DNA from: an uncultured Clostridia bacterium
GTDB taxonomy: Bacteria; Bacillota; Clostridia; Oscillospirales; Acutalibacteraceae
Length of the DNA: 64,000 bases
NCBI GenBank assembly: GCA_927362715.1
Contig: CAKMIX010000001.1
Location: forward strand, 62,001-126,000
Direction of reading: 5' to 3'
This document shows positions 4,630-24,440 of this stretch, piece by piece. The notes below the pieces were generated by a model, which did not search any database, was not told where the DNA came from, and worked only from the letters and a program-made list of their open reading frames with translations. Position 1 is the stretch's first letter; each line of letters starts with the position of its first letter. The translations under genes and the position numbers were made by a program.

Positions 4630-5482
4630 CGGCAGTCAAAAGCCATGCGGGATTACAGCGCACGCCGCGAATGCGCACCTCAAAATGCAGATGCGCCCCG
4701 GTGGACTGTCCCGTGCTGCCCACACGCGCGATCACTTCGCCCGCGTTGAGGACTGCGCCGGCTTCTGCGATGATCTCACTGCAATGGCAATAGACCGTCT
4801 GCACATCGTTTCCGTGCGAAAGGATGATATAATTGCCGCGTACATCGGAATAGCCCGTCTCCTCCACCACGCCCGAAAAGGCGGCATAAATGGGGCTGCC
4901 GTGCGCGGCGGCAAGGTCGATGCCGGAATGGAATCCCGCTTCATCCGTAACGGGATTGATGCGGTAACCGAACGCAGAGGTGACGCGCGTATATTCTACG
5001 GGCACACGAAATGCGCCCGTAATGATGTAAGGCGCGAAAGAGGTGTTTTCCGCGGCTAATTGCAGATCTTCACCGCCCGCACCTGTCAAGGCGTCTGTAT
5101 CCTCAGCGGTAACGGTCGCCGAAGCGGCTTCGGTCGTCTGTGCCGTAGACTCGGGATCAGACTGTGTACCGAACACACGGTCGCCGAAGCGCTCTACCGC
5201 GTCGGACAGGGCAGCGAGCTCGTCATCCTGCCCGAAGATAGCTGTATATGCCTGCCGAAACGTATCGAACCCGGAATAGCCTGCGCGATACATCGCAAAA
5301 ACGCAGAGCGCCAGCAGCGCGCATACAAGCGCCTGCACGAGCAGCGTATGCAGCAGAAAATCGCGCTTCGGCATATCTTCCGTTTCCGCTTCGCGGCGGC
5401 GTGTTCGCGTCGGGCGGCTTTCCGGGATCTCTGTCCGGGCATCTTCCCGCAGCCGATTCTGCCGAGGCTCCTCGTCATACAT
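4619..5482 (-). CDS. M23-family peptidase, SpoIVFA-like
   Basis: This 287-residue single-pass protein has a charged cytoplasmic N-terminus, one membrane helix near residues 45-65 (LLVQALVCALLALCVFAMY), a low-complexity Thr/Ala linker and a C-terminal LytM/M23 domain. Both metal motifs are present (HSGIDLAA and HLHFEVR). SpoIVFA, which anchors SpoIVFB in Bacillus, has this architecture but a degenerate LytM domain; here the zinc ligands look intact. ATG 5482 is preferred over an upstream GTG because AAAGGA lies eight bases before it. The M50 gene follows with an overlap. Confidence 0.8.
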   Translation of the reverse strand: MYDEEPRQNRLREDARTEIPESRPTRTRRREAETEDMPKRDFLLHTLLVQALVCALLALCVFAMYRAGYSGFDTFRQAYTAIFGQDDELAALSDAVERFGDRVFGTQSDPESTAQTTEAASATVTAEDTDALTGAGGEDLQLAAENTSFAPYIITGAFRVPVEYTRVTSAFGYRINPVTDEAGFHSGIDLAAAHGSPIYAAFSGVVEETGYSDVRGNYIILSHGNDVQTVYCHCSEIIAEAGAVLNAGEVIARVGSTGQSTGAHLHFEVRIRGVRCNPAWLLTADAD

Positions 5483-22876: not shown

Positions 22877-23638
22877 TTATGAATCTTTGTTCATTTCCGT
22901 TTTTTCGAATATTTGCAGCGCACGTATGACTTCCGTGACATCCTCATAAAACGCAAGCTCTGCCGCGCCGTCCAAAGCCGTATGCGAACGATTGATAAGC
23001 ACCAGGTGCTTCCCGCAGAAATACTGCAAAAACGACGCCGCCGGGTACACGACCAACGACGTTCCGACGACTACCAGTGTATCTGCACGGCGGATCGCAT
23101 CTACAGCGCCGCGCACGATATGCTCGTCCAGCGGTTCTTCGTACAGCACTACATCCGGCTTTACAATTCCGCCGCACGAACAGCGCGGCACGCCCTTGCT
23201 TTGCGCAACAAAGCGTGCGTCATATCGTTTTTTGCAGCGCATACAGAAATTACGGTGCACACTGCCGTGCAGTTCATAAACTTCCGTGCTTCCCGCCGCC
23301 GTGTGCAAACCGTCAATATTCTGCGTCACCACGCTGACCGAACGTGCGGGACTTTCAAGCGCGGCGAAATACCGGTGCGCCTCGTTTGGCTTCGCGTCCA
23401 AAAAAAGCATATTCTTTTTATAATAGGAATAAAATTCCGTCGGGTGCGCATCAAAAAAGGAACGGCTGATGATCTGCTCGGGCGGGACGGAAAGCCCGCT
23501 TTCGCGGTTATAAAGCCCATCTGCCGAACGAAAATCCGGAATGCCCGACGGTACGCTGATCCCTGCGCCCGTAAATACACACAAATTTCTGCTTGCCTGC
23601 AAAATACGATAAAATTTTTGTATCGAATATGTATCCAT
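22877..23638 (-). CDS. SIR2-family NAD-dependent protein deacylase
   Basis: A 253-residue sirtuin that removes acyl groups from lysines using NAD. The Rossmann NAD motif FTGAGISVPSGIPDFR is near residue 20, TQNIDGLH near 110, the catalytic histidine is in YELHGS, and a zinc site is formed by CMRC and CSC. ATG 23638 is chosen over the upstream frame because GGGAG precedes it and the sequence before it holds the CIRCE region. It is transcribed away from hsp20, with a perfect CIRCE element about 70 bases upstream. Confidence 0.93.
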   Translation of the reverse strand: MDTYSIQKFYRILQASRNLCVFTGAGISVPSGIPDFRSADGLYNRESGLSVPPEQIISRSFFDAHPTEFYSYYKKNMLFLDAKPNEAHRYFAALESPARSVSVVTQNIDGLHTAAGSTEVYELHGSVHRNFCMRCKKRYDARFVAQSKGVPRCSCGGIVKPDVVLYEEPLDEHIVRGAVDAIRRADTLVVVGTSLVVYPAASFLQYFCGKHLVLINRSHTALDGAAELAFYEDVTEVIRALQIFEKTEMNKDS

Positions 23639-23706
23639 ATGCTCCCGGTTCTCCTTTCTTGCTGCGGTATGTACCCTGCTATAGAAAAAGTTCTGTTTCG
23701 TCTTTG

Positions 23707-23733
23707 TTAGCACTCTTTTTATTAGAGTGCTAA
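23707..23733. promoter_or_regulatory. CIRCE element (HrcA operator)
   Basis: A perfect TTAGCACTC (23707-23715), nine-base spacer, GAGTGCTAA (23725-23733). This is the consensus CIRCE sequence bound by the heat-shock repressor HrcA. It lies between the divergent sirtuin and hsp20 genes and could control either or both. A TATAAT at 23783-23788 with no clear -35 box may belong to the hsp20 promoter. Confidence 0.95.
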
Positions 23734-23821
23734 TGTTTACAAATTGTTCATATTTTCTCTGAAAAATGGTAACAGTTGGGGGTATAATAAGAATTGTAAA
23801 CAGAAAAAAGAGGTGATTCCG

Positions 23822-23857
23822 ATGGGACGGAATTCAGAAACAAACCACATCCGCTGA
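23822..23857 (+). CDS. Eleven-codon leader ORF upstream of hsp20
   Basis: An ATG with GAGGTG about seven bases upstream opens an 11-codon frame (MGRNSETNHIR) that ends in TGA at 23855-23857, 65 bases before the hsp20 start. The ribosome-binding site is good and the frame short, as in regulatory leader peptides. Its stop codon lies within a possible pseudoknot. Whether it is translated is unknown. Confidence 0.45.
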   Translation: MGRNSETNHIR

Positions 23858-23886
23858 AGCTGCCCGAGCGGATAGAGACCGGGCAG
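23850..23886 (+). promoter_or_regulatory. Potential H-type RNA pseudoknot in the hsp20 5' leader
   Basis: Stem 1 is TCCGCT (23850-23855) with AGCGGA (23867-23872). Stem 2 is CTGCCCG (23860-23866) with CGGGCAG (23880-23886). Both are perfect and abut with no base between them; crossing loops are 4 and 7 bases. This geometry is that of a compact H-type pseudoknot or of two mutually exclusive hairpins. It lies 36 bases upstream of the hsp20 start codon. Confidence 0.5.
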
Positions 23887-23922
23887 AAAACTTAAAACTT
23901 TACATTTTCGGAGGTATGTATT

Positions 23923-24378
23923 ATGTTTGATTTGAGACCTTATTCCCGCAGAAACCACATCGCTTCTTATAACCCCTTCCGCGAAATGGAAGAAATGGAA
24001 CGCCGCTTCTTTGAAGATCCGTTCGGGTTCTATGACGGCAAGGCACTCGCTGAGTTCAAGACCGACATCATTGACAACGGCGACAGCTACACGCTGGAGG
24101 CGGATATGCCCGGTTTTGAGAAAGGCGACATCACGCTGGACATCACCGGTGACGTGCTGACGATCAAAGCGGAACGCCACTCCGAACACGAAGAAAAGGA
24201 CAAAAAGCAGAAATATGTCCGCTGCGAGCGTTCCTACGGCAGTTATTCACGTGCGTTCGACATTTCGGAAGTCGATGCCGACAAGATCACGGCAAAATAC
24301 ACGGACGGCGTTCTGCGCCTGACGCTTCCGAAAAAGGAAACGCCGAAGACAGATTCCCGCCGGTTGGAAATAGAATAA
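23923..24378 (+). CDS. hsp20: Hsp20/alpha-crystallin family small heat-shock protein
   Basis: A 151-residue ATP-independent chaperone that binds unfolding proteins. The alpha-crystallin domain spans about residues 40-135: it opens with KTDIIDNGDSYTLEADMPGF, and the terminal part has the DGVLRLTLPKKE signature. Length and layout are normal. CGGAGG precedes the ATG. It is monocistronic, with a strong terminator, and its leader carries the leader ORF and pseudoknot downstream of the CIRCE element, pointing to HrcA-dependent heat induction. Confidence 0.95.
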   Translation: MFDLRPYSRRNHIASYNPFREMEEMERRFFEDPFGFYDGKALAEFKTDIIDNGDSYTLEADMPGFEKGDITLDITGDVLTIKAERHSEHEEKDKKQKYVRCERSYGSYSRAFDISEVDADKITAKYTDGVLRLTLPKKETPKTDSRRLEIE

Positions 24379-24391
24379 ACCTGCAAGGAAG

Positions 24392-24440
24392 AAGGCGCTC
24401 CGCGAAATCTCAAGATTTCGCGGAGCGCCTTTTCTTTTTG
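24392..24440 (+). terminator. Terminator of hsp20
   Basis: An 18-bp perfect stem (24392-24409 with 24414-24431) and a TCAA loop are followed by TTCTTTTTG. Confidence 0.95.

Follow-up and report, generated by a model that had tools for sequence, protein, structure and literature searches.

Introduction

The 5' stabilisers of Bacillus-type transcripts, represented by ermC and by the STAB-SD of cryIIIA (PMC3997798), combine a strong Shine-Dalgarno (SD) sequence near the 5' end with a stable leader structure, the encoded peptide being irrelevant; aprE and gsiB are grouped with them. We describe a leader of comparable makeup upstream of hsp20, a small heat-shock gene carried by a stretch of 64,000 nucleotides (nt) from an uncultured Clostridia bacterium of the Acutalibacteraceae (contig CAKMIX010000001.1, positions 62,001 to 126,000; hereafter the window), in which a short open reading frame (ORF) with a strong SD is followed by an H-type pseudoknot. 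A leader ORF and a pseudoknot 5' of the ribosome-binding site of the main gene likewise occur in the repBA/repZ leader of IncB and IncI-alpha plasmids; in leaders of this type, the stop of the ORF is so placed that translation of the ORF opens a hairpin that hides the ribosome-binding site. The IbpA 5' untranslated region (UTR), which joins a ROSE-like thermometer to self-repression by IbpA, is likewise a structured UTR of a small heat-shock gene, and ROSE elements hide the SD in weak helices. Finally, preQ1 and other H-type riboswitches place a similar fold near a ribosome-binding site.

To our knowledge, little has been described of how small heat-shock genes are controlled post-transcriptionally in Gram-positive anaerobes. 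Thermometer control of such genes is prevalent in alpha- and gamma-proteobacteria, according to PMC10474464. A covarying pseudoknot whose distance to the hsp20 start codon varies little offers a defined element to test. Judged by comparison of relatives, this knot is kept by selection as a structure, and we tentatively read the window's copy as one instance of a cis-acting RNA element that is conserved in hsp20 leaders across this order of Clostridia and acts as a leader stabiliser.

Results

Architecture of the hsp20 leader

Stem 1 of the pseudoknot pairs ATCCGCT (23849-23855; all features lie on the forward strand unless stated) with AGCGGAT (23867-23873), the core being TCCGCT at 23850-23855 and AGCGGA at 23867-23872, with A23849-T23873 as a seventh base pair. 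Stem 2 pairs CTGCCCG (23860-23866) with CGGGCAG (23880-23886), its 5' strand directly adjoining that of stem 1 on the 3' side. The loops measure 4 and 7 nt, the latter shrinking to 6 nt when the seventh base pair of stem 1 is included. Compensating changes in relatives support both strands of stem 1, and a compensating change supports those of stem 2. Upstream, a strong SD, AGGTGAT (23811-23817), forms a putative ribosome docking site near the predicted 5' end and precedes a leader ORF of 11 codons (23822-23857; ATG at 23822, MGRNSETNHIR, TGA at 23855-23857). Direct reading of the sequence finds both stems, the ORF and its ribosome-binding site exactly where an earlier note on this DNA had placed them. 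That note also had the ORF end inside stem 1, which holds for the T of the TGA alone in the window and is not conserved among relatives, where the stop lies variously 5' of, within or 3' of the knot. Downstream, an AU-rich linker (23887-23909), whose spacing and composition were compared across leaders, leads to the hsp20 SD, GGAGG (23910-23914). A frameshift into hsp20 was rejected, the frame of hsp20 being closed by a TAA at 23893-23895.

The knot exceeds chance in hsp20 leaders

Upstream regions of hsp20 were drawn from genomes of the genus, family and order (hsp20 matches in 16/39, 39/398 and 52/394 genomes, respectively) and from named contigs, for which the best 80 of 551 confirmed stretches were taken. 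The first rounds yielded 122 sufficiently long leaders, reduced to 97 non-redundant ones; the later non-redundant set comprised 133. Knots were curated in 36 leaders, a selection made by eye among candidates that a program had proposed.

For the window's leader, 300 dinucleotide shuffles gave no knot as good as its own best one. Across the 97 leaders, 21 stood at 3/300 or better by this measure, with about 1.3 expected, although some of these (for example L044, L072, L073, L041 and L037) appear by eye to contain other structures and not the knot element; most of the 97 showed no individual excess over their own shuffles, which counts for chance. In a domain-swap test, the 5' part of each leader was held fixed and the 3' parts were exchanged among the 97 leaders in 5000 permutations. 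With the cut at -46, a leader's own halves were better matched by 8.6 standard deviations (z = -8.6, 0/5000 permutations), and cuts at -40, -52 and -58 gave 7.1, 6.7 and 4.5 standard deviations, each again with 0/5000. Because GC content could mimic such a signal, the 3' part of each leader was also shuffled on its own: at -46, 35/97 leaders stood at 3/60 or better (6.4 expected), against 14/147 (9.6 expected) in a control set of upstream regions of other ORFs from the same loci, which was left unfiltered for redundancy. At -40 and -52 the corresponding figures were 29/97 and 30/97 leaders versus 10/147 and 13/147 controls. The mean excess at -46 was t = -7.7 for hsp20 leaders and t = -2.8 for the other-gene set, indicating that part of the pairing signal is not specific to hsp20. 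A blind variant, in which the most stable hairpin was taken as stem 1, had its observed mean reached by 17/10000 permutations and ranked the own partner in the top tenth in only 12/97 leaders, and it often selected stem 2 in place of stem 1; on these grounds the swap test was preferred.

Both stems covary within clades

Covariation, which the earlier note had proposed to look for in relatives, was scored on plain MAFFT alignments of three clades whose members had been selected for similar, knotted appearance, so that counts of pairs changed on both sides lean towards structure; the swap and shuffle tests, by comparison, took all 97 leaders. In A5, which comprises five leaders from the genus of the window, 92.9% of cells were paired, and both-sided changes were seen at three pairs (six cells); when the partner strand was slid along, these values fell to 28-43% of cells and 0-1 pairs. 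In a second clade (A6, eight leaders) 73.3% of cells were paired and six pairs (eight cells) had changed on both sides, and in a third (A7, eleven leaders) the values were 71.3% and five pairs (seven cells). Of 500 column shuffles each, 1, 0 and 6 attained the covariation score of A5, A6 and A7. The number of both-sided pairs was reached by 182, 2 and 58 of 500, making this count by itself weak in A5 and A7. Covariation is thus found in both stems, and more in stem 1 (two, five and four both-sided pairs in A5, A6 and A7) than in stem 2 (one in each). Stem 2 cells were paired at 97.1%, 66.1% and 59.7%, respectively, and in two A6 rows (L004 and L005) stem 2 is one base out of register.

The knot keeps its distance from the hsp20 start codon

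The end of the knot lies 33.5 nt from the hsp20 ATG (standard deviation 6.2, range 23-50, n = 35, the knot of L079 at 83 nt being excluded as a probable misassignment). Distances to other landmarks scatter more widely: from the CIRCE operator to the knot the standard deviation is 30.8 (n = 28), or 21.0 without the artefact L094, and from the leader ATG to the knot it is 16.3 (n = 26), in part a product of the relaxed pattern used. The candidate search admitted only knots whose stem 2 ended no more than about 80 nt from the ATG. In 35/36 leaders the hsp20 SD follows the knot at a distance of 12-37 nt, the remaining one being the probably misassigned L079, at 70 nt.

In the nested fold computed for the window, the 5' strand of stem 1 pairs with the hsp20 SD, and the knot competes with this pairing; SD accessibility in silico rises from 0.20 to 0.33 when the knot forms. 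Across 36 leaders, mean accessibility changes from 0.45 to 0.41 when the knot forms, rising in 5 and falling in 12. A switch at the SD was rejected on these values, since the knot confers no general gain in access. At 50 C the computed hairpin energies are still -7.2 kcal/mol for stem 1 and -9.8 kcal/mol for stem 2, so that by computation neither stem melts at heat-shock temperatures. Because the stems are stable and mean SD access is unchanged, a barrier fits better than a switch.

Strong model matches are confined to hsp20

Two covariance models were built, one (R1) from a tight group of 15 leaders (A2) and one (R2) from the window's clade. At E <= 0.1, R1 matched exactly once per genome in 16 genomes, at hsp20; since 14/16 of these leaders belonged to the training set, the informative part is the absence of a second copy. 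With stricter filters in the 398 family genomes, R1 gave four matches, three at hsp20 and one at an apparent, unrelated promoter (L131). Among 92 loci at E <= 1 it recovered 15 training leaders, seven further hsp20 leaders and two places elsewhere, and it overlooks the knots of other clades, the window's included. R2, run against 39 genus genomes at E <= 0.1, gave 21 matches in 17 genomes, of which the five strong ones are all hsp20 leaders from the training set or the same genomes, and the 16 weak ones (E of 0.0038 and above) include one in the window's own genome. Strong matches of both models are confined to hsp20. The L131 match had raised a promoter reading of the unpaired CATAATAA tail found in one clade, which was dropped on finding, by eye only, no -35 element in L069 and L057. 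A search of Rfam 15 with window positions 23600-24100 returned nine matches, all below gathering cut-offs, and a search with 13 leader-bearing loci returned none.

The leader ORF is conserved at its start

A strict start motif (SD, two Cs, ATG; the two Cs are present in every instance by definition of the pattern) occurs in 32/133 non-redundant leaders, versus 0.36 expected from shuffles, and a loose SD-ATG arrangement in 75/133 versus 43.2. The ORFs behind these starts encode peptides of 2-29 codons, two of them of 2 codons, and that of L105 stays open to the hsp20 start. Inspection by eye of the leader ORFs found no common peptide sequence across clades, and the stop lies upstream of the knot in L010, L020, L022, L050 and L123. 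The conservation of a small ORF that the earlier note had raised for examination is accordingly upheld for the start site and not for a specific peptide: what the leaders have in common is a putative ribosome docking site.

The strict dock is found in 15/35 knot leaders versus 17/98 others (p = 0.005); the association of CIRCE with the knot is not significant (p = 0.20). In the 60 nt 5' of the knot, anti-SD pairing exceeds shuffles (t = -4.8, n = 35), and it does so as well in the 20 knot leaders that lack the strict motif (t = -3.0); as a reference, hsp20's own SD region gives t = -20.0. The strong SD near the 5' end that marks Bacillus-type stabilisers is found here too, its nearness to the 5' end being taken from the window's -10 match.

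Carriers and variants of the element

Many related gut bacteria have the knot, often downstream of a dock. By eye, it is present in six of the order's family groups (f1, f7, f14, f20, f21 and f26), and order leaders L152-L155, L157, L151, L161, L149, L148 and others resemble the knot leaders of the first round. The leader of L006 (G002, of the window's genus) is near-identical to that of L046, recorded as Candidatus Fimenecus excrementigallinarum (83% hsp20 identity). A cultured carrier among the matches listed is Massilioclostridium coli (L059), whose knot alone is not significant (19/300 shuffles) and aligns with its own clade, A6.

Three genus members (L009, L011 and L012) have, by eye, no CIRCE, leader ORF or knot within 260 nt upstream of hsp20; a TATAAT shortly 5' of the start codon suggests that the control region of hsp20 was replaced or lost in them. 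In L071 (4789-4964) the third loop of the knot extends to 176 nt, of which 157 nt (4795-4951) are bounded by the inverted ends ACTAATATCC/GGATATTAGT and have the look of a small mobile element that inserted there. Long third loops are present in L052 and L065 too.

The hsp20 locus

The hsp20 gene (23923-24378) encodes a small heat-shock protein of 151 aa with an alpha-crystallin domain (Pfam HSP20, PF00011, 82.7 bits versus a gathering score of 20.8); the best NCBIfam model is Hsp18_Clos, below its cut-off, and the product is the sole protein match in its own genome at E <= 0.001. A strong intrinsic terminator (24390-24433; 20 pairs, the limit of the scan, with tail CTTTTTGTGT) follows directly, so the transcript is probably monocistronic. 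Upstream, a perfect TTAGCACTC-N9-GAGTGCTAA match at 23707-23733 (inner pattern at G000:C1:85710-85730) constitutes a CIRCE operator, the predicted binding site of HrcA. A probable -10 box of the hsp20 promoter, TATAAT (23783-23788), makes 10/12 consensus matches together with CTGAAA at 23759, and would probably place the transcript start at about 23795.

The window's genome holds three further CIRCE sites by exact core pattern, which precede groES-groEL, hrcA and htpG (translations judged by eye) at 36, 76 and 24 nt from the start, versus 189 nt at hsp20. A TTTACAAATTGTTCATA-like sequence that follows CIRCE at 23734-23755 is kept in many leaders and may be part of a promoter or another operator; past CIRCE, a loose TTTACA-like match occurs in 49/72 and a GTTCAT-like match in 44/72 CIRCE leaders, as raw counts. 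The divergent neighbour (22877-23713, reverse strand) looks by eye like a sirtuin-type NAD-dependent deacylase, and shares its upstream region with the CIRCE of hsp20.

Discussion

Because the fold has been kept as its letters changed, the knot probably controls the amount of chaperone made. How it does so is best accounted for, in our tentative judgement, by stabilisation of the leader, which we favour because a stable structure near the ribosome-binding site stands behind a peptide-indifferent dock, as in Bacillus (PMC3997798). The element would have two parts, which co-occur above chance and are also found apart: a ribosome dock near the 5' end, made of a strong SD and an AUG with an arbitrary short peptide, and an H-type pseudoknot ending about 33 nt 5' of the hsp20 start codon. 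A docked ribosome would shield the 5' end of the mRNA, and the stable knot, immediately beyond the stretch covered by a ribosome that initiates on hsp20, would form a roadblock to 5'-to-3' decay, such that the leader raises or prolongs Hsp20 output. CIRCE and HrcA would set transcription, and the leader the yield and lifetime per transcript. In this model the docking, the nuclease and the stabilising effect are putative.

Several observations weigh against this interpretation. Dock and knot are separable, as the strict dock is present in 17/98 leaders that lack a curated knot and absent from 20/35 knot leaders. Anti-SD pairing also exceeds shuffles, by a smaller margin, in sequence farther 5' (t = -2.4). 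The knots were hand-picked from ATG-limited candidates, which biases the spacing and the pair counts in favour of the model. The 15 leaders of A2 show no both-sided change and remain within their own shuffles, a group uninformative on covariation because its members are too alike. Lastly, the narrow distance from knot to hsp20 start would equally suit an element acting on translation initiation.

One such element would be a protein operator, in which the knot is a shape-specific site for a repressor or activator of hsp20 translation, perhaps Hsp20 itself. The single strong model match per genome, at hsp20, is what autoregulation would lead one to expect, the spacing from the start codon agrees with it, and self-repression of small heat-shock proteins through the 5' UTR, as by E. 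coli IbpA, is known in gamma-proteobacteria (PMC10474464). Loop sequences, however, differ between clades by eye, and we consider an operator possible but unlikely. The same paper reports that the arginine R93, essential for IbpA self-repression, is not conserved in Gram-positive Hsp20s. The more specific form, in which the operator senses the level of small heat-shock protein or free chaperone capacity on hsp20 mRNA and ribosomes at the upstream dock oppose it, appears improbable; if true, it would be a Gram-positive, pseudoknot-based counterpart of IbpA self-repression.

Coupling to the leader ORF, the idea of the earlier note and similar to plasmid repBA/repZ, whose ribosomes on the leader ORF would hold the knot open until altered initiation or termination let it form and change hsp20 translation, is rather unlikely as well. 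The co-occurrence of dock and knot suits it, as do two features of the window: a ribosome at the stop codon would overlap both stems in part, and stem 1 is paired to the hsp20 SD in the alternative, nested fold. Against it, the stop is not conserved and precedes the knot altogether in five leaders, the strict ORF start is lacking in more than half of the knot leaders, and SD access is not raised by the knot over the 36 leaders.

The earlier note had envisaged heat-altered folding and thermosensing, and the function of hsp20 together with its CIRCE context would suit a knot that melts on heating to free translation. With hairpins this stable at 50 C, an SD outside the knot whose mean computed access is unchanged, and no Rfam match above cut-off, a thermometer of the ROSE or fourU type was rejected as very improbable. 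No more credible is a ligand-binding riboswitch of H-type fold, for which the compact knot 5' of the ribosome-binding site and the conserved unpaired CATAATAA tail of one clade would speak: loops and tail vary between clades, the tail motif is present in 14/35 knot leaders, strong model matches fall only at hsp20, Rfam offers nothing above cut-off, and an alternative fold that would hide the SD is not general among leaders. Chance, or a side effect of constraint on the DNA itself, to which A2, the many leaders at shuffle level and the small mean excess in the other-gene control lend something, is contradicted by the covariation, swap and control tests and is extremely improbable.

The additional layer of control beyond CIRCE that the earlier note had proposed is likely, as a post-transcriptional one, because the stems covary, the ORF start is conserved and no described counterpart emerged. 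Its statement that no hsp20 leader of this form had been described agrees with Rfam and with our literature search of open-licence papers, which found no hsp20 pseudoknot leader. As far as that search goes, the knot leader would be a structured stabilising or regulatory leader whose fold is undescribed for hsp20. Compared with known systems, it departs from preQ1-like riboswitches in its variable loops (by eye), an SD outside the knot and the lack of an Rfam match above cut-off; from ROSE and IbpA leaders in that its stems are very stable and the SD lies outside them; and from repBA/repZ in that the knot brings no general gain in SD access and the ORF stop is not conserved. The Bacillus stabilisers differ in having a hairpin at the 5' end, whereas the hsp20 leader has a pseudoknot tied to the hsp20 start.
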